Shown here piece after piece: positions 6,787-29,185 of a DNA stretch of 64,000 nt; the first letter of the stretch is position 1; each line of letters starts with the position of its first letter. The translations under genes and the position numbers were made by a program. Source of the DNA: Thermosynechococcus sichuanensis E542 (GTDB taxonomy: Bacteria; Cyanobacteriota; Cyanobacteriia; Thermosynechococcales; Thermosynechococcaceae); contig NZ_CP032152.1 in assembly GCF_003555505.1 (NCBI RefSeq), positions 434,001 to 498,000 on the forward strand, in the 5' to 3' direction. Below the pieces are notes generated by a model that saw nothing but the letters and a program-made list of their open reading frames with translations, was not told the DNA's origin and did not search any database.

Positions 6787-8230
6787 CGCGGTTGTAGGGA
6801 CTGAGACTCTGGAGAATTTCCCGGCCATAGCTGCGCTCCGTGAGCCGCCGATCCAAAATAGCCACCAGCGTGTCATCCTGACGCACCGGGGCAAGGGCAC
6901 GATCCAGCACGGTCAAGCACTCTGGCAAGAGATACTGGCGAAACCAATCCTGTTTTTGTTGCTTGTGCCATTCAATGCGGGCACTCACCACCGCTTTTTC
7001 CGGCGAGGGCAAGGGCAACGTCGTCAAAACAAAGAGAGCCGGACAGGGCAACTGCGCCCCATGCCGCAGCCAAAAGGCTTCCCCTGTCACTAAAATTGTG
7101 TTCGTGTCAAGGGTCGTCGTCTCCACCTGCACCCGTGAACCGTAAAGAGCAGCCAATTGGGTGGCCAACTGTTCCCGCAGGGGCACATCACTAACGAGGA
7201 TTACTGCCCGCCGATGGCCAATGGTGCCAATGAGATCATAGAGGCGTCGCAAAACCGCTGGGGCAAATTCTGGGGTGTTGGGCAAGGGTAAGTCTTCGGC
7301 AATCGCAAGGGTAATCGCTTCACTGTGGCGATCGCCAGCAAATTTGATCGTTGTTTGGGGCGGAATACCCAGTTCCTGCTGCACATAGGCTAGAGGGGGG
7401 TCTGTCTCTGGTCCACTACCGATGAAGACAAAGGGTGCCTGGCACCAAAGATGCTCAAAATAGCAGCGGAAACTGAGGGGATGTCCTTGGAGGCTGAAGT
7501 AGCCCACGGTGGGGTGGCGCCGTCCCCAAATCACCGTGTCACTGCGGTTGAGGTAATCCCGCAATTGCAACCATTGGGGAGGCAAGGCTTGCGGCCATTG
7601 ATGGAGCAGTTCAAGGAGCGGTTGCCGTTCTGTGGAGGTAAGCAGATAGTCGCCATAGGGATTCTGCGGTCGCTGAAAGAGGTGCTGCGCCAACTGGGCA
7701 TAGACTTGGCGAATGGCATCAACAGCACTGGGAATCGCTAGTTTCAAATGCTCCCAATCGCTGGTGGTAATTGTACAGGTCATCTGCTGCTGGGCAATTT
7801 GCGGCAAGGCTTCAATGCCATCAATGATTGTGACGACATTGGGATGGGCGTTGGCGTGGCGACACCAGTCCTCAAGGCTCATTACAAGCAACCCCTCAAA
7901 GGCTGGCTGCGGGCAGTGGCTCTGCTGAATCGGTTTCGTTACCGCAAGAAAGGTGAGCAGCTCAGGAATTTCTTGGTGTAGCAGTCGCGTCAGTCGCTCT
8001 TGGGGGACGACGAGCAGGGCCGGCTCAGGATACAACAGCAGCGGCAGCAGATAACTCAGACCATAGCGATGCTGCAACACCGCCCGCTGGCTAACCTGAA
8101 GTAAGCACCCCCGCCGCAGCCGCAGGGCACGGGCAACCAACCGCGCCAAGGTGAGATGGTGAGGCCACCGGCGATCGCCACTGCTGCGTAAAAATGCCCG
8201 TAATTGGCGGTGAACCTCTGCCTCAATCAC
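6758..8230 (-). CDS. DinG-related helicase-like protein lacking Walker A
   Basis: The product is about 490 residues. The C-terminal part looks like the DinG/XPD helicase C-terminal domain: LFVLTTLPLPSPEKAVVSAR, then WFRQYLLPECLTVLDRA, then VAILDRRL..YG near the end, in the order found in DinG motifs V-VI. The N-terminal half has a motif-Ia-like strand and VTIIDGIEALP where a DEAH box would be. I find no GKT/GKS Walker A, and the DEAH and QxxGRxxR motifs are degraded, so ATP-dependent unwinding is doubtful. The GTG at 8230 (IEAEVHRQLRAFLRS) is preferred; the frame is open to a TTG at 8254. It lies 41 nt downstream of murE on the same strand. Function is unknown. Confidence 0.7.
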   Translation of the reverse strand: MIEAEVHRQLRAFLRSSGDRRWPHHLTLARLVARALRLRRGCLLQVSQRAVLQHRYGLSYLLPLLLYPEPALLVVPQERLTRLLHQEIPELLTFLAVTKPIQQSHCPQPAFEGLLVMSLEDWCRHANAHPNVVTIIDGIEALPQIAQQQMTCTITTSDWEHLKLAIPSAVDAIRQVYAQLAQHLFQRPQNPYGDYLLTSTERQPLLELLHQWPQALPPQWLQLRDYLNRSDTVIWGRRHPTVGYFSLQGHPLSFRCYFEHLWCQAPFVFIGSGPETDPPLAYVQQELGIPPQTTIKFAGDRHSEAITLAIAEDLPLPNTPEFAPAVLRRLYDLIGTIGHRRAVILVSDVPLREQLATQLAALYGSRVQVETTTLDTNTILVTGEAFWLRHGAQLPCPALFVLTTLPLPSPEKAVVSARIEWHKQQKQDWFRQYLLPECLTVLDRALAPVRQDDTLVAILDRRLTERSYGREILQSLSPYNRVSDRAQSPR

Positions 8231-8271
8231 AATCTGCTCGCTGTGGAACAACAATCCCCTATTGTGGCACG

Positions 8272-9765
8272 TTAGCCTTGCTCCGGTCGTTGTTTGCGTC
8301 GCTGTTCGAGGGCAGTGCGGGCTTCTTCGCGATCGTCAAAGTGAACTTTTTCAGTGCCCAGAATTTGGTAGTCCTCATGACCTTTACCGGCAATAATCAC
8401 GCCATCGCCGGGGGCTGCGCTCAGAATTGCCTGGAGAATGGCTTGGCGGCGATCGGCTTCAACAATCAGCGGCGTTTGCGGTGGGATACCAGCCAAGATG
8501 TCATCCAGAATGCGGCGGGGATCCTCAGTGCGCGGGTTATCGGAGGTCACCACCACTTGATCCGCAAGGCGGGCAGCAATGGCACCCATTTGGGGACGTT
8601 TGGTGCGATCGCGATCGCCCCCACAGCCAAAGACACAGATCAGCTTACCGGGAATAAAGGGACGGGCAGCTTTTAACAAGTTCTCAAGGCTATCGGGGGT
8701 ATGGGCATAATCCACAAGCACGGTAATCTCTTGGTCTGGGCTAATGCGCACCTGCTCCATCCGCCCCGGTACCCCGGCAAAGTCACGAATGGCCTTGAGC
8801 ATCGATTCTAAGGGCAGTCCCACCGCTGCCCCCATGGCGATCGCTGCTAGCACATTGGCCACATTAAACTGTCCCACCAAGGGTGAGTCTAGGGTGCCGC
8901 TACCGATAGGGGTATGAACTGTGCCTGTCACACCATTGACACGATAGTTAAGGTTCTCAGCTCGAAAATCGGCATTCTCGCTGAGGCCATAGGTCCAGTA
9001 GCGATCGCGCGGCAACTGTTGAGCCAGTCGCTGGCCAAAGGGATCATCGCCATTGAGAATTGCTCGACCCTTGAGATAGTCAGCAGTAAAGAGCTTAGCC
9101 TTAGCGGCAAAATAGTCCTCCAGATCGCGGTGATAGTCTAGATGATCTTGGGTCAAGTTGGTAAAAGCCGCCACTTCAAACTGACAGCCCCACACCCGAT
9201 CCTGCGCTAAAGCATGGGAACTCACCTCCATTACCCCGAACCGACAGCCCGCTGCAACTGCTGCCGCCAATTGTTCCTGAAGGGTCACCGCGAAGGGCGT
9301 GGTGTGACTGGCCATCTCACAGTGTCCCGGCCAGCGGCTGTAGAGCGTTCCCAAGAGTGCTGTTGGATAGCCCACACTGTTGAGGAGATGTTCCACCAAG
9401 TGGGTGGTGGTTGTTTTGCCATTCGTCCCCGTAACTCCCAAGAGACTGAGCTGTTGACTGGGGTAACCATAAAATGCGGCAGCGAGCCGACCACAGGCAC
9501 GTTCAATATCGGGGACTACAATTACGCAGGCATCCCCTTCACGGGGTTTGGCTTGAGGAGACACCACTGCGGCGATCGCCCCTGCTGCCAAGGCACTCGG
9601 CCAAAAATTGCCCCCGTCCACCCGCGTGCCGGGCATACCAATAAACAACGAGCCACGCTGACACTCCCAAGAATTCGTACTCAGGGACTTCACCTCTTGA
9701 TCGAGGGCAGGATGCTCAAAACTGGGCGTAATCGCTGCCGCGGTCAGGAGTTCCCGTAGGTTCAT
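8272..9765 (-). CDS. murE: UDP-MurNAc-tripeptide synthetase MurE (meso-DAP-adding)
   Basis: This 497-residue cytoplasmic Mur ligase adds meso-diaminopimelate to UDP-MurNAc-L-Ala-D-Glu in peptidoglycan synthesis. It shows the ATP-binding loop GVTGTNGKTTTTHLVEHLL, the carbamoylated-Lys region with MEVSSHAL, the ADP-proximal NGDDPFG, and DNPRTEDP near residue 415. The DNPR motif marks meso-DAP rather than Lys specificity. The length is normal for the family. The ATG at 9765 gives the expected N-terminus MNLRELLTAA. The 350 nt upstream, shared with a divergent small gene, should hold its promoter. Confidence 0.95.
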   Translation of the reverse strand: MNLRELLTAAAITPSFEHPALDQEVKSLSTNSWECQRGSLFIGMPGTRVDGGNFWPSALAAGAIAAVVSPQAKPREGDACVIVVPDIERACGRLAAAFYGYPSQQLSLLGVTGTNGKTTTTHLVEHLLNSVGYPTALLGTLYSRWPGHCEMASHTTPFAVTLQEQLAAAVAAGCRFGVMEVSSHALAQDRVWGCQFEVAAFTNLTQDHLDYHRDLEDYFAAKAKLFTADYLKGRAILNGDDPFGQRLAQQLPRDRYWTYGLSENADFRAENLNYRVNGVTGTVHTPIGSGTLDSPLVGQFNVANVLAAIAMGAAVGLPLESMLKAIRDFAGVPGRMEQVRISPDQEITVLVDYAHTPDSLENLLKAARPFIPGKLICVFGCGGDRDRTKRPQMGAIAARLADQVVVTSDNPRTEDPRRILDDILAGIPPQTPLIVEADRRQAILQAILSAAPGDGVIIAGKGHEDYQILGTEKVHFDDREEARTALEQRRKQRPEQG

Positions 9766-10044
9766 GGTTGTCCATCTCCAGTGATAGGCTGTTTAGGGTA
9801 TTGTGGCACTACGGCACTCACCTGTGAAAGATACGGAAATAAACGACCCCACTGCATGAATGAGGAATTCTGCGAAAGGAGTTCAAGCCTAGGCACGTAC
9901 CAGTTTGTGAAGTGTCTTGAGTTGTACTGAAAGCGCATGGACGCTAGCGGATTGGCGTACTTGCTCAACACAGCAGGTGACGGGAGTTGCAGGCTGTCTG
10001 ACTAGCATCCTGTGACAATTTTTGCCCAAAGCTTGCCTTTTGTT

Positions 10045-10077
10045 AAAAATCCGATAATCTAGTTCATAAAAATCCGA
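10045..10077. repeat. Direct repeat AAAAATCCGA x2 upstream of the small gene and glmS
   Basis: AAAAATCCGA occurs at 10045-10054 and again at 10068-10077, 23 bp apart start to start, about two helical turns. It lies 45-80 bp upstream of the ATG at 10123 in an otherwise AT-rich stretch. The placement suggests an activator or repressor site, or a promoter element. No known regulator is recognised. The remaining 9766-10044 region shows no gene. Confidence 0.4.
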
Positions 10078-10122
10078 CTAATTAATCTTTTATTAAGTTT
10101 ATTAAGGTGTGGGTGTTGGGTG

Positions 10123-10428
10123 ATGAGTGAGTGGCAGAAAGTAGAGTGGACTATGGATGATCACGAATGGCAAGCGATCGCCAATTCTCGCCGCCAAATT
10201 GAGCAGTCGTGGCACAGGACAGTTCACCGAGTTCAGGTTCCCTCAAGAACCACCTCGAAACCCTTAGACGCGATCACCATGCCAGCAGTTTCCCATCCGC
10301 GTTCGATTCAACCCATTGGCATTCAACCGTGGCAAGCTGAATTCACCAAAGAACGCTTTGCCTCCCGCTCACGACTTCCTCTCAAACGGTCACAGGTGGA
10401 ACTGCCGCAATTTGCCAGCCGTCGTTAG
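10123..10428 (+). CDS. Small basic protein of unknown function
   Basis: This open frame encodes 101 residues, beginning MSEWQKVEWTMDDHEWQAIA and ending in a basic tail (RRSQVELPQFASRR-like). It is rich in Ser, Arg and Pro, with no membrane segment or known motif. The ATG at 10123 is preceded by an in-frame GTG at 10120. It lies 39 nt upstream of glmS on the same strand, so it may be co-transcribed and could act as a leader gene. Composition and length suggest a disordered protein. I do not recognise the family; a chance frame cannot be excluded. Confidence 0.45.
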   Translation: MSEWQKVEWTMDDHEWQAIANSRRQIEQSWHRTVHRVQVPSRTTSKPLDAITMPAVSHPRSIQPIGIQPWQAEFTKERFASRSRLPLKRSQVELPQFASRR

Positions 10429-12348: not shown

Positions 12349-12456
12349 CATTGCATTTTATCGGCGGCGATGCTCCTATATCTATTTCGAAAGGGAGTGA
12401 GATATTTTCAAGAGGAATAGGCTATACTCAAAGAGTCATGAATGTTACTCAAGAAT

Positions 12457-12777
12457 ATGAGCTATAGCTTGGACTTAAGAGAGCGAGTTGTCTCCTATAT
12501 CAAGCAAGGCGGCAAAATCAGTGAAGCGACTCAAATCTTTCAGGTGAGCCGTGCCACCATCCATCGCTGGCTGAAGCGAGAGGACTTAGCGCCGACGGTT
12601 GTCCCCCGTCGTCCTTGGAAACTGGATTGGGCGGCCTTAGCAGCGGATGTTGCGGCTCATCCCGATGACCGTTTAATCGACCGCGCCCAGCGATTTGGGG
12701 TACAAGTGTCCACCATTAGTTACGCCCTCAACCAGATGGGCATCACCCGAAAAAAAACAAAAAAACAGATGCGTTAA
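12457..12777 (+). pseudogene. IS630-family transposase, N-terminal remnant (ORF A)
   Basis: The frame starts MSYSLDLRERVVSYIKQGGK and continues with a helix-turn-helix (EATQIFQVSRATIHRWLKRE) and a second HTH-like segment (DRAQRFGVQVSTISYALNQM), as in the DNA-binding half of IS630/Tc1-like transposases. It ends in a run of A (12750-12765, AAAAAAAACAAAAAAAC type) where such elements often shift frame to reach ORF B. In the shifted frame coding continues as VKERQAYQAVVKAAGHEVLL, then stops. The frame is open from an ATG at 12442, but MSYSLDL at 12457 is the usual start. The catalytic domain is gone. Confidence 0.8.
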
Positions 12778-12836
12778 AGAGCGACAAGCGTATCAGGCAG
12801 TAGTCAAAGCGGCGGGTCACGAGGTGTTACTCTCCT

Positions 12837-12944
12837 GATTTGCATGGGATTGAGCAGGACTTTAGTGTGCTGAAGCGAGCGCGGATGTATGCAGGGTCAA
12901 AGAGTTCGATTGATGAAGTGATTCGCAATTATTGTGCTGGATAA
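12837..12944 (+). pseudogene. IS630-family transposase, C-terminal remnant (ORF B)
   Basis: About 35 codons remain of the transposase C-terminus: LHGIEQDFSVLKRARMYAG then SSIDEVIRNYCAG and a stop. In intact elements the equivalent region follows the last acidic catalytic residue (typically DLNPIE). Only IEQDF of that motif is left here, so an internal deletion joined the early ORF B to its last 35 codons. Confidence 0.75.
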
Positions 12945-13098
12945 CGTGTCATTCTTGATTGGAATAGCTATACTCTTAACAATTTTCAGTTCAGGGTCTC
13001 TAGTCCGTGGCTAATTTGATACAGGTTTTGCGCGATCGCCCATTTTGAGACCTTGACCACTCAAGATACGATCAACCGCAGAAACGTCATCTGTTTCA

Positions 13099-24356: not shown

Positions 24357-26822
24357 CTAGCCTCTGCGCCGTTGCAGATAGGTGGCCGCGCCTATGTAAA
24401 TCAGGCTGTGGAGAATCAGCATTCCCCAGTTCAGCAGCAGATTACCCCAAGTGGGGGCATAGACAGGCGTTGGCTCAAAGGGCTGAGGCGGTGGTTCAAA
24501 GAGGCCAAAATCGAGGGGCGGCGGTACCATGCCATTCACGTCAATCAAGGCACCATAGGCACCCATTGTCCAACGGCCAATCGTCAGCCAAGAGAGCACC
24601 GTTGCAATTCCTGTGAGCTTAAAGAGGACGCCGGCAAAGATAATTTGCGGCAGGAGCAATGGCGGTAGAATCTTGCTCGCTTGATCACTATTACTCACGG
24701 CAGCGGAGATCAAAAGTCCTAGACAGAGACTGGCCACCAGCGTCAGGAAGGTGGTGATGCCAAACCCCAAAGGCCAAGGGAGGAGGGCACCCTTCGGCAG
24801 ACCAAAGGCTAGTAGCGCCACAAGGGTAATGAGCAGCATTTGTACCAAAGCCATTCCCTTGCCAAGGGTGAGTTTGGCTGCCATGTAGGCCCAGAGACTG
24901 AGATTGGCAAGGCGTTCGCGGCGGTAGATGGCTACCTCTGTAATCAAGGCTTGCGCCCAGCCGGAGAGTCCCACCCAAAGACAGGCACAGGTAAAGACAA
25001 AGAGAATGCGCAGGGTTTGAGCCGCTTGCAGCAGGCCGGGGGGATCTTGGGGCACAAAGGGGGAGCGATCAATAGCAAAGCGGGTGAGCAGCAGGGCAAT
25101 AGGGACGCTGATCAGATTCAAGACAAGGCTGAGACGATCGCGCCACAGGAGTTGCCACTGGCGTTGACACAATACCCGCCATTGATAGAGGTGAGGTGGG
25201 GCTGGCTGTTGGGGAGGGGGTTCGGCACTGGCACGGTTCTCGCCCCCCAGAACACTGGTGCTCTCATAGTGGTGCCCCATGCTGAGGTGGTTGGCAAGGT
25301 AGCGTTGATAGTCCGTGGATTGGCGAAATTTTTGACTCCATTCGGCACTATTTTCGGGGGTCAAGAGGGCATAGATTTCAGCCACGGAATTCAGGGGGCG
25401 ATCGCCCGTTGGACTAAAGAATTGCCGCGCCTGATCGGCGGGGCCAAAATAGCAAAGACGCCCGCCCGAACCAAGAACCAGCAGGCGATCGCACAAATGC
25501 ACATAACTGGTAGCATGGGTAACCAAGACAATCGTGCGTTCTTGATCCGCCAATTGCCGCAGCAACTGCATCAGCAAAAAGTCCAAGCCAGGATCCAGAC
25601 CGGAGGTGGGTTCATCAAGGAAAAAGAGCTTGGGGTTGGCCAATAGCTCAACGGCAATACTCACTCGCTTGCGCTGACCACCACTGAGACTGGCCACCAG
25701 TTGATGTTCAGTCCCTGTTAACTGCACCTGTTCCAGAACTCGCTGAATGGCTACTTTGCGGTTTTGGGCATCGGTATCCGCTGGTAAGCGCAGTTGCGCC
25801 GCATAGTTCAGGACTTCGGCCACTGTGAGGCGGGCATGGACAATATCATCTTGGGGCACATAACCAATTTGGTGACGGTAGGTGGCAAGATTGTGATGCA
25901 GATTGAGACCATTGAGTAGCACCTGTCCCGCCTGAAGGGGATCCAGCCCCATCAACACTTTTAAGAGGGTGGATTTCCCCGTACCACTGCCACCGACAAT
26001 ACCCACAAGCTGCTTTGGCTCCGCCACAAAGGAGACATCTTGTAAAAGGGGGCGATCGCCCGCTGGGGTTTTTACCCGTCGTTGCAATCCCCAAGCATCA
26101 ATGCGAATGTGACTGCCCTGATCCGTAATCTCTAGGGTTTCGTGGCGGTAGATCAGGACAAAAGGCCCAATGCGAATCTGATCACCATTGCGCAGCGTGT
26201 AGGGGTCTTTGAGGAGTTTGGCATTGACATAGGTGCCGTTGCTGCTGCCCAAATCTCGTAGGACGTAGAGGCCGGCACTAGTGCGATCAATACTGGCGTG
26301 GCGCAAAGACACCGTGGGTGCATCCAGTTGCCAATGCTGATAGCTGTTGCTCGCTGCGCGCCCTAACGTCAGCGGCCATTCCTTGAGGGTTTTCAGGACA
26401 AGGCGGCGCTGCTGTGGCAAGGGCGGGGGACTGGCCGTGCCCGGAAACTGGAGCTGCACCAGCAATTGCACTTTGTTTTTCGGGTCTTGGCCAATTTCGA
26501 GGCGCAGCGTTTCCCCAAGGGCAAAGCCCTCGTCAATGCCGATGCGGCGTTGGTTGTAGAACGTGCCATTGGTACTGCGGCGTTGATAGCCATCCCCATC
26601 CCAGAGATAGTAGGTTGCCCCCTCTTGCTTAAACACAGCATGGCGGCTGGAAATCACTGACCACAGGGGATCATCGGGCACCACTAAATCTGCCCACTGG
26701 TGATCGCGCCCCAGACGATGCTCCGGTTGTGTCAGGGAGTAGGTTAGCGTTTTCCCCTGACTTTCGAGGGTGAGGGTAACGGTGGGGAGATCAACAACCG
26801 TTTTTGGCGGGGGCGATCGCAT
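24357..26822 (-). CDS. FHA-FHA-ABC transporter (ABCG type, ATPase-permease fusion)
   Basis: The product is 821 residues. FHA domain 1 (about 35-110: HRLGRDHQWADLVVP, ISSRHAVF, STNGTFYNQR) and FHA domain 2 (about 150-225: VSLRHASIDR, LGSSNGTYVN) are followed by an ABC ATPase with Walker A GIVGGSGTGKSTLLKVL (near 276), signature SLSGGQRKRVSIA and Walker B LFFLDEPTSGLDPG. A C-terminal ABC2-type membrane domain has about six helices (about 570-821). This is the half-transporter layout of ABCG proteins, with phosphothreonine-reading FHA domains at the front, so transport is probably tied to Ser/Thr phosphorylation. The substrate is unknown. The window also encodes two Ser/Thr kinases and a PP2C. 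Confidence 0.92.
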   Translation of the reverse strand: MRSPPPKTVVDLPTVTLTLESQGKTLTYSLTQPEHRLGRDHQWADLVVPDDPLWSVISSRHAVFKQEGATYYLWDGDGYQRRSTNGTFYNQRRIGIDEGFALGETLRLEIGQDPKNKVQLLVQLQFPGTASPPPLPQQRRLVLKTLKEWPLTLGRAASNSYQHWQLDAPTVSLRHASIDRTSAGLYVLRDLGSSNGTYVNAKLLKDPYTLRNGDQIRIGPFVLIYRHETLEITDQGSHIRIDAWGLQRRVKTPAGDRPLLQDVSFVAEPKQLVGIVGGSGTGKSTLLKVLMGLDPLQAGQVLLNGLNLHHNLATYRHQIGYVPQDDIVHARLTVAEVLNYAAQLRLPADTDAQNRKVAIQRVLEQVQLTGTEHQLVASLSGGQRKRVSIAVELLANPKLFFLDEPTSGLDPGLDFLLMQLLRQLADQERTIVLVTHATSYVHLCDRLLVLGSGGRLCYFGPADQARQFFSPTGDRPLNSVAEIYALLTPENSAEWSQKFRQSTDYQRYLANHLSMGHHYESTSVLGGENRASAEPPPQQPAPPHLYQWRVLCQRQWQLLWRDRLSLVLNLISVPIALLLTRFAIDRSPFVPQDPPGLLQAAQTLRILFVFTCACLWVGLSGWAQALITEVAIYRRERLANLSLWAYMAAKLTLGKGMALVQMLLITLVALLAFGLPKGALLPWPLGFGITTFLTLVASLCLGLLISAAVSNSDQASKILPPLLLPQIIFAGVLFKLTGIATVLSWLTIGRWTMGAYGALIDVNGMVPPPLDFGLFEPPPQPFEPTPVYAPTWGNLLLNWGMLILHSLIYIGAATYLQRRRG

Positions 26823-26852: not shown

Positions 26853-27713
26853 TTAATTCACCGTTACCCAAAAGGGAGCGGTAACAATTTGCTCCCCTCG
26901 TTGGAACTGTGCCCAGAGCTTGTAGCGTCCGGGGGTCGGAAACTGGGTCATAAAACGAACCGTTTCCTTGGGTTGACGATCCACAGCATGGGCATGGAGA
27001 TAATCAACGGGTTTGAGGGGAGTCGTCTCCCGTAAAATCACTAGATGCCCTGCTTCACCGAGGTAGGGGCGGAGATCCGTAACGGCTTGCTGGGTGGCAG
27101 CATCCCGTAGTCGAAATGCCACTTCTACGGCTGAACCAGCTTTGAGGGGTTGAGGGAGTTTTAGTTCAACTGTCGTTGTGCCAATCACTTGGGTGGTTTG
27201 GGCAGTGGGGGCAGGGGGAGACGGCGCTGCGCCTTGAGCTGCGATTGGGATCATCGCCACCGTTTCGTTAGCACCAGTGGGTTTGTAATCAGCAATGAGG
27301 GTGTAGCCGCCTCCTTGGGGCAATGTGGTTGTGACTTGAAACTGACCGTCACCCAGATAGCGGGGATGCAGGTGCTGAAACACTTGAAAATCATCACTGA
27401 CAATGATCAGGTGCATTAGCTCCTCTTGAAAACGCTCAAACTGCGTCACTGCCTCGCCACTGTGGCTGCGAATCGCCAGCGTAAAGGTGGTTGCTTGTTG
27501 AGGAGGCGGTGTGGGCGCATTCACCAGTTCCGCATGGGTGTTTGGCGCACCTCCACTGTGATGCTGAGTCGCGGTGGAACTGTGATGGTCATGGTGGGGA
27601 TGATGGGGAGTGGCAACTTGTTTTTGCTGCATTGTAGCGACGATAGCGATCGCTCCCCCAAACAGGAGTGCAAGTCCTACCACGACTGGTTGCATAAAAG
27701 GCAGTTTGGCCAT
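26853..27713 (-). CDS. Membrane-anchored protein with His-rich segment
   Basis: The product is 286 residues. It has a single N-terminal hydrophobic helix (VVVGLALLFGGAIAIVATM), then a His cluster (HHPHHDHHSS, TQHHSGG) and two beta-sandwich-like parts: one with HLIIVSDDFQVFQHLHPRYL and GGGYTLIADYKP, the other with EAGHLVILRETTPLKPVDYL and FPTPGRYKLWAQFQRG. It looks like periplasmic metal-binding proteins seen near copper genes, with several conserved His, but no named family is certain. It lies 30 nt upstream of the FHA-ABC transporter on the same strand and may be co-transcribed. Metal binding is inferred from composition only. Confidence 0.6.
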   Translation of the reverse strand: MAKLPFMQPVVVGLALLFGGAIAIVATMQQKQVATPHHPHHDHHSSTATQHHSGGAPNTHAELVNAPTPPPQQATTFTLAIRSHSGEAVTQFERFQEELMHLIIVSDDFQVFQHLHPRYLGDGQFQVTTTLPQGGGYTLIADYKPTGANETVAMIPIAAQGAAPSPPAPTAQTTQVIGTTTVELKLPQPLKAGSAVEVAFRLRDAATQQAVTDLRPYLGEAGHLVILRETTPLKPVDYLHAHAVDRQPKETVRFMTQFPTPGRYKLWAQFQRGEQIVTAPFWVTVN

Positions 27714-27782: not shown

Positions 27783-28295
27783 CTAAAATATGCTGGATTG
27801 AGTTTTTATTCGCTGGCAAAACTGAGCAGCAGTTTCAATCAGGACAGGAACAAACTCGTGGGCAGCTTGCAAACTAGTGGCTAAAACGGCTGCATCTCGA
27901 AGGTAATCGTGAGCCATTGGATTGCGCAGTTGCCGCATTGTAAGCCAAACCTCTGCATCGGGCACAAGGCCAAGCCGTTCAGCATGGTCAAGGTTTTCCA
28001 AAAAAGTTGCCACTGGTTTGCCAAAGGCACTCAGATAGGCGGGCAAGAGCTTGCTCCTTAGGGTATCCTGAAGGCAGCCAAAGCGTGTCAGAAACGCATC
28101 CACACGCTCTGCAAGATCAATGTCTGCCTCCAATTGTGCTGCCCGTCCTGCCGTAAAGGGTTCCTGAAAGAGGCGCTGATCCGTCACCTGTAGGTGTGCC
28201 ACTTCTCGCTCCACCAATTCACAAAGCGAATGTAGCCGTTTCTGAAGTTGCAGACTTATAGCTATTCCAATAAAGGATGAGAGATTATGCAGCAT
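27783..28295 (-). CDS. HEPN-domain (HepT-like) protein, 5' end altered by IS scar
   Basis: The open frame is 170 codons. From about residue 17 on it reads as an all-alpha HEPN/HepT-like protein: FTAGRAAQLEADIDLAERVD, RFGCLQDTLRSKLLPAYL, ENLDHAERLGLVP and MRQLRNPMAHDYLRD. RNPMAH fits the HEPN RNase motif R-x4-H. HepT toxins normally pair with an MNT nucleotidyltransferase; none is next to it. The first about 13 codons are read from an IS630 right end (28256-28320), so the native start and any upstream partner appear to have been removed. It may be a pseudogene or a still-expressed fusion. Confidence 0.55.
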   Translation of the reverse strand: MLHNLSSFIGIAISLQLQKRLHSLCELVEREVAHLQVTDQRLFQEPFTAGRAAQLEADIDLAERVDAFLTRFGCLQDTLRSKLLPAYLSAFGKPVATFLENLDHAERLGLVPDAEVWLTMRQLRNPMAHDYLRDAAVLATSLQAAHEFVPVLIETAAQFCQRIKTQSSIF

Positions 28296-28320
28296 AGTAG
28301 TTGCGGATCGCGCGAACGGT
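28256..28320 (-). mobile_element. Solo IS630 right-end scar
   Basis: About 65 bases repeat the end of the 12.4-13.0 kb IS630 copy in inverse orientation: both read TATAGCTATTCCAAT, then a diverged stretch, then CAGCA.A.TA.TTGCG.ATC. On the minus strand the scar still encodes the last transposase codons, NTVRAIRNYYAA and a stop, aligning with VIRNYCAG of the other copy. Nothing else of the element remains here. It separates thyX from the HEPN frame. Confidence 0.7.
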
Positions 28321-28369
28321 GTTCCCCTTGCACTAGCCTAGAAAAGGCAGAGATTCAGAAGAGACAAAG

Positions 28370-29185
28370 ATGCAAGACGGGCGTGTAATTGCCGATTCAA
28401 TTTCACCAGCAGGGGTGCGCTTGGTAACGCTGCAACTGACATATCCGCGTTTTATCCACAGTGAATTCCTCACCCATCGCGTGTTTTCCCGTAATTCCGC
28501 CAGTTCGCGGGCAGTGCCAGTCACAAAGATGATGGCGCAGGTGGAGGAGGATCCGGTCATTCCTTACCATTGGGGGCAAAATCAGCGCGGCATGCAGGCG
28601 CGCCAAGAAAGTGAACATAAAGAGGCGGCAAAGGAAATTTGGTTGAAAACTCGCCTAGCGGTTCTTGAGGGGGCACGCCAACTCCATGAACTAGGCATTC
28701 ACAAGCAGGTGGTGAACCGTATGCTGGAGCCGTGGATGTGGATGCAAACGGTGGTGAGTAGCACGGAGTGGGAAAACTTTTTGCGCCTGCGCAACCACCC
28801 CGATGCTCAGCCCGAAATGCAAGCCTTGGCGAAGCTGATTCAGCATCTGCTGGAAACTCACGAACCGACACCCGTGGCTGTGGGGGATTGGCACCTTCCC
28901 TATATTGACGCCCATGAACGGGAACAATACAGTTTGGAGGAATGTAAGTATATGGCTGTGGCACGTTGTGCCCGAGTGTCCTACTATCTGCGGGATGGTC
29001 AACGCAGTGACCCCGCCTCTGATCTGGCACTGTATCAACGCTTGGCGGGGGCAGAACCAAAGCACCTGTCTCCCTTAGAACATGTGGCTGAATGTATGGG
29101 CGATCGCCAGCCCTATGCGAATTTTGTCGGTTGGCGACAACTGCGTTACTTTGAGGAGAGAAAATCAGCAAATCCTCGCCAATGA
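28370..29185 (+). CDS. thyX: FAD-dependent thymidylate synthase ThyX
   Basis: This 271-residue flavin-dependent enzyme methylates dUMP to dTMP. It is recognised by THRVFSRNSASSRAVPV near residue 35-50, which matches the ThyX motif (xHRx2SxNx2SxR) except that the first Arg of the usual RHR is Thr, and by NRMLEPWMWMQTVVSSTEWENF. It is somewhat longer than many ThyX (about 210-250). No thyA is in the window. It starts at ATG 28370, 50 nt from the IS scar. Transfer from a phage or other bacterium would fit the divergent motif, but base composition is not visibly different. Confidence 0.88.
   Translation: MQDGRVIADSISPAGVRLVTLQLTYPRFIHSEFLTHRVFSRNSASSRAVPVTKMMAQVEEDPVIPYHWGQNQRGMQARQESEHKEAAKEIWLKTRLAVLEGARQLHELGIHKQVVNRMLEPWMWMQTVVSSTEWENFLRLRNHPDAQPEMQALAKLIQHLLETHEPTPVAVGDWHLPYIDAHEREQYSLEECKYMAVARCARVSYYLRDGQRSDPASDLALYQRLAGAEPKHLSPLEHVAECMGDRQPYANFVGWRQLRYFEERKSANPRQ

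Follow-up and report, generated by a model that had tools for sequence, protein, structure and literature searches.

A 170-codon open reading frame in Thermosynechococcus sichuanensis E542 very probably encodes the toxin of what was once an MNT-HEPN (type VII-like) pair; the antitoxin gene was lost by way of an IS630 element, and the toxin gene would now be a silent and/or attenuated, decaying relic. The frame lies within a 64,000-nt stretch of contig NZ_CP032152.1 (hereafter the window; Table 1), and genome-wide statements rest on sequence searches against the 2,650,294-bp source genome. Eleven Thermosynechococcus members were searched in the genus survey (G007 and G009 are drafts); G005 was taken as CL-1, G006 as BP-1, G002 as NK55 and G003 as PCC 6715. 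In HEPN-MNT systems studied to date, HEPN is an RNase toxin that MNT silences by adding AMP to the tyrosine of its motif (PMC7641770, PMC11586414). An MNT-HEPN module is not described in the titles and abstracts of the Thermosynechococcus toxin-antitoxin literature, or in the portion of the CL-1 genome paper covered here (PMC7005997).

Table 1. Features of the orphan HEPN locus and its surroundings (window positions).
Feature	Position	Strand	Remark
Orphan HEPN (HepT/HI0074-like) ORF	27783..28295	-	170 aa, frame intact; residues 13-170 equivalent to the native protein in relatives
ATG of orphan HEPN ORF	28295-28293	-	inside IS630 right-end remnant
RX4HXY motif RNPMAHDY	27903..27926	-	R124-NPMA-H129-D-Y131
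IS630 right-end remnant, 53 bp	28257..28309	-	ends ...GGAATAGCTA, then target TA and native AGTCTGCAACTTCAG
13 IS-derived codons (MLHNLSSFIGIAI)	28257..28295	-	provide ATG and predicted disordered N-terminus
Junction microhomology GTTGCGGATCGC	28300..28311		IS end AGTTGCGAATC vs ancestral thyX upstream GGTTGCGGATCGC (G005, G008)
thyX (flavin-dependent thymidylate synthase)	28370..29185	+	new divergent neighbour of HEPN; ATG-to-ATG gap 74 bp
YtkA-like (weak) secreted protein	26853..27713	-	downstream neighbour of HEPN; PF13115 25.2 bits, cut-off 25.9
FHA-ABC transporter	24357..26822	-	directly after HEPN in G001, G002, G004 and G008; marker of kept downstream synteny
IS630-type remnant	about 12379..12974	+	has both ends and a truncated transposase (12442-12777); used as reference for the scar

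The initial annotation had assigned the frame to the HEPN RNases from the motif RNPMAH, and this assignment held: a complete RX4HXY signature occupies residues 124-131 of the open frame, reading RNPMAHDY in the orphan as opposed to RNQMVHDY in relatives and RNQMVYDY in G004. The range given there, 27783-28320, takes in both the frame and the IS630 scar, although its end lies slightly beyond both. Profile matches were weak (PF08780, E 0.0016, 18.8 bits against a cut-off of 31.8; TIGR01987, E 4e-6, 26.9 bits against a curated cut-off of 55.8). An AlphaFold2 model built from an 11-sequence alignment (mean pLDDT 83.7) displayed a helical bundle with a HEPN-like fold, in which residues 1-9 of the IS-derived tail scored below 50. 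Foldseek comparison with the PDB returned HEPN toxins of HEPN-MNT modules as the top matches (probability 1.00; E 0.015, a modest value that is usual with helical bundles), with a TM-score of up to 0.79 when normalised by target length. A broad profile (A2) matched HEPN toxins in the PDB strongly, but it includes HI0074-type rows, while the best match of the narrow profile (A1) reached only E 0.028; the orphan is therefore placed in its family by motif and fold together with the weak profiles. PADLOC made no HEPN call and gave the MNT genes weak MNT-type matches only, and no relatives were found in plasmids, phages or viral contigs. The only match to the window protein from the contig search (L003) was rejected as spurious, the matched strand carrying no ORF.

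We compared the family with known systems. It resembles HepT/MntA type VII pairs (S. oneidensis SO_3166/SO_3165; A. flos-aquae HEPN-MNT) in its RX4HXY motif and its HEPN helical bundle; in relatives, the toxin start is also overlapped by a neighbouring MNT gene of the Pol-beta type. It differs from them in that the adjacent MNT is missing from the source genome (present in G001, G004 and G005), the relatives' MNT1 and MNT2 carry GS-X9-DXD (GSRVNDDLKGGDVD), one residue shorter than the published GSX10DXD, the toxin, at about 160 aa, contains an extra segment, and the proteins fall below the curated HepT and MntA model cut-offs. The best structural match was Legionella pneumophila HEPN-MNT (PDB 8xdj, 8xeh, 8yuf), which shares RX4HXY; identity is nonetheless 12-14%, the partner is lost in the source genome, and the Legionella Q44/E47 metal site (PMC11586414) appears, in a low-identity alignment, to face A/T and G in the orphan's family. 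The HI0074 family (TIGR01987 / PF08780, PDB 1jog) matches weakly around the motif, but the orphan lies under the curated cut-offs of both models. Moreover, HEPN precedes MNT in some cyanobacterial HI0074-type pairs (e.g. L009), whereas MNT comes first in the orphan's family.

Homologues in G005, G001 and G004 are 83-84% identical to the orphan from residue 13 onward, the point at which homology to near full-length relatives begins, and codon 13 of the orphan ORF corresponds to the native HEPN start in these three genomes. Directly upstream of HEPN in all three is a gene for a 101-aa nucleotidyltransferase (MNT) that passes the PF01909 gathering score. The scar-free relatives use a different, native ATG, which overlaps the MNT stop as ATGTTGA or ATGCTAA. 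This different start, the upstream MNT and the predicted HEPN-like fold are the opposite of the outcomes by which the initial annotation would have been refuted. In G005 and G001 the pair directly follows glgP. These arrangements point to glgP-MNT-HEPN as the ancestral order, and suggest that HEPN may be co-transcribed from glgP/MNT and translationally coupled in relatives. On the downstream side, an RND efflux-like plus ytkA-like segment separates HEPN from the FHA-ABC transporter gene in G005 (L032, about 6800-10200); only ytkA of this segment is present in the window, and the segment is missing from four relatives (L030, L031, L033, L034).

The annotation had further traced about the first 13 codons of the orphan to an IS630 right end, read the transposase tail NYYAA across them and noted that no nucleotidyltransferase is adjacent. 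All three observations were confirmed. The scar overlaps the ORF by exactly 39 bases, or 13 codons, and its second frame reads RNYYAA*, the counterpart of the IRNYCAG* tail in the window's own IS copy. The 53-bp sequence recurs at five other sites of the 2.65-Mb genome (81-91%, E 1e-7 to 1e-12), including the 3' end of the IS630-type remnant in the window. Elsewhere, then, the repeat forms one end of an element carrying an IS630 transposase, and in the window copy the N-terminus of this transposase matches HTH_Tnp_IS630 (PF01710, E 5e-36). We infer that the IS-derived ATG is the start codon of the orphan. The orphan has no neighbouring MNT, and a search of the whole genome at E<=1 recovered nothing similar to the lost gene.

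We next polarised the changes between the source genome and G005 by parsimony with G001 and G004 as outgroups; the counts are small, and two double-change codons contribute two changes each. HEPN displayed 19 nonsynonymous and 6 synonymous changes on the source branch versus 1 and 11 on the CL-1 (G005) branch (Fisher p 2e-4). The corresponding source-branch counts for thyX were 5 and 22 (p 6e-5 vs HEPN), and the polarised counts for the ABC neighbour were 10 and 20. Pairwise dN/dS for HEPN was 0.21-0.25 in pairs with the source genome and 0.06-0.08 in others. Neutral simulation of 25 changes predicted 6.1-7.8 synonymous changes and reproduced the observed ratio, consistent with the orphan evolving at about the neutral rate. 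Positive selection was rejected, since the nonsynonymous share did not exceed the neutral expectation. Residues invariant in the other four intact homologues are altered in the orphan (R74C, G80R, R104H, Q126P and V128A, window numbering). As counter-evidence, about 25 to 36 substitutions have left the frame open and the RX4HXY residues in place. Stop-free runs made up about 40% of simulations with 25 changes and 28-30% of those with 36; an open frame is thus allowed by chance (28-42%), and weak constraint on the orphan is possible.

The initial annotation had proposed that the unpaired toxin must be inactive, silent or controlled from elsewhere. Given the neutral-rate evolution, and with no intact MNT candidate found in the genome, we favor the first two options over the third: the orphan is most likely silent and/or attenuated, judging from its sequence. 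That it is instead an active toxin, restrained either by self-assembly or by a different MNT acting in trans, is very unlikely. The genome does contain one further PF01909 gene, adjoining a genuine HI0074-type HEPN, and L. pneumophila HEPN tetramers are reported to block their own active site (PMC11586414). However, a one-base insertion unique to the source genome among those aligned truncates this other MNT before the VDVVDL segment with the third Asp, and the neutral divergence of the orphan argues against maintained activity.

The second HEPN gene, at G000:C1:1698442-1699152 (L066), is a genuine HI0074 member, scoring 64.1 bits against a cut-off of 55.8, and the insertion in its MNT partner is absent from the aligned congeners G007, G005, G008, G001 and G010. 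With the second MNT frameshifted and the first gone, both HEPN genes of the source genome are without an intact partner.

It is very unlikely that the orphan is a domesticated HEPN that acquired a new function beside thyX, its IS-derived N-terminus contributing to that shift. Such a history would accommodate the intact ORF, the retained catalytic motif and the concentration of changes on the source branch, but the nonsynonymous excess is no larger than expected under neutrality, the 13 new residues are predicted to be mostly disordered, and the module decays likewise in sister lineages. We give equally little weight to a scenario in which IS630, by inserting in the start/stop overlap, would first have inactivated the toxin, leaving the antitoxin superfluous, with the orphan still made from its IS-encoded start as an attenuated RNase in a new role.

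Across the genus, both genes are intact by frame in 3 of 11 members, among them G004, in which the motif His is replaced by Tyr. Both genes of the pair are broken in G008, G002 retains a HEPN fragment only, the source genome has the orphan, and no match was found in the remaining five (G003, G006, G007, G009 and G010; G007 and G009 as drafts). The MNT-HEPN module is decaying across Thermosynechococcus, which fits the reading of the orphan as a relic.

Individual loci differ in their state. In G004 (L006:1501-1974) RNQMVYDY occurs beside an intact MNT, and it is possible that the toxin was inactivated while the antitoxin was kept. In G002 (L007:1408-1776) a single long open frame, interrupted by one stop, spans the HEPN remnant and sequence upstream of it. 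A paralogous MNT2-HEPN2 pair (about 55% identical) is intact in G008, while HEPN2 of G005 contains two stops. The source genome retains a 42-aa HEPN2 remnant paralogous to the orphan (G000:C1:88292-88417; L002 / L029); compared with G005, about 500 bp have been deleted, and MNT2 and half of HEPN2 with them.

We then examined where the IS630 ends lie relative to the intact loci. A left IS end is located beside glgP (genome 428699-428795), is 94% identical over 97 bp to IS positions 19-115 and begins TAGCCATTTCGAAAGGG... The left junction reads GCAATTA|TAGCC in the source genome and GCGATTAACGG in relatives, while the right junction reads GGAATAGCTA|TAAGTCTGCAACTTC compared to AATGCTAAGTCCGCAACTTC in relatives. 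On the HEPN side of the latter, native sequence restarts as TAAGTCTGCAACTTCAG, where G004 and G008 carry ATGCTAAGTCCGCAACTTCAG. TA is therefore found at the outer edge of each end (GCAATTA|TAGCC and GGAATAGCTA|TAAGTC versus native GCGATTAACGG and ATGCTAAGTC). The TA target at both junctions, the terminal repeats TAGCCATTTC / TAGCTATTCC and the helix-turn-helix transposase of the window copy are all shared with IS630 / Tc1-mariner elements; the HEPN locus differs in having end fragments only, now 33 kb apart.

Since the left IS end lies at the third MNT codon and the right one where the MNT stop and HEPN start overlap, these alignments demonstrate that an insertion-deletion involving IS630 removed the MNT gene. 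Lost between the ends are MNT codon 4 through the stop, together with HEPN's own ATG, in agreement with the proposal of the initial annotation that such an event took the native start and perhaps the antitoxin. Flanking synteny on both sides agrees with a single ancestral locus. The loss could stem from a pair of IS630 insertions that then recombined, or from a single insertion with a deletion next to it. The least likely alternative, in which the loss of MNT had nothing to do with IS630 and the IS ends arrived later as unrelated insertions, finds a parallel in G002, where MNT disappeared along with the 3' end of glgP and the 5' end of HEPN with no recognised IS at the junction, but is opposed by the complementary nature of the left and right ends, each of which is at a TA and which together bracket exactly the missing MNT codons.

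Beyond what the annotation had proposed, a later rearrangement placed the HEPN locus beside thyX, splitting IS630 such that the left 97 bp remained by glgP and the right 53 bp stayed fused to HEPN. glgP and HEPN are now separated by 33 kb in the source genome. The left IS part now lies upstream of an RND-transporter-like gene (recognised by eye), and the right part joins the thyX upstream region at a 12-base stretch largely common to both. Extensive rearrangement among Thermosynechococcus genomes is described in PMC7005997.

We suggest that the IS end would have provided a chance in-frame ATG in place of the coupled HEPN start, with no evident promoter; no sigma-70-like promoter was seen in 28150-28450. 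The toxin would thereby have been deprived of the glgP/MNT transcript and of the translational coupling that drove HEPN. Once cut off in this manner it would have been harmless, such that loss of MNT was tolerated, and the orphan would now be drifting neutrally, with several residues that are invariant in intact homologues altered.

Taken together, these findings provide a base-resolved case of how a genome may lose an antitoxin without dying, since the element landed on the shared stop/start and the toxin start was lost together with the antitoxin. The locus likewise links one of the many Thermosynechococcus synteny breaks to an IS630 element. A solo HEPN toxin gene can thus be a relic under neutral drift and need not be a free toxin, which matters for the many solo toxins that surveys have counted (PMC2701414).
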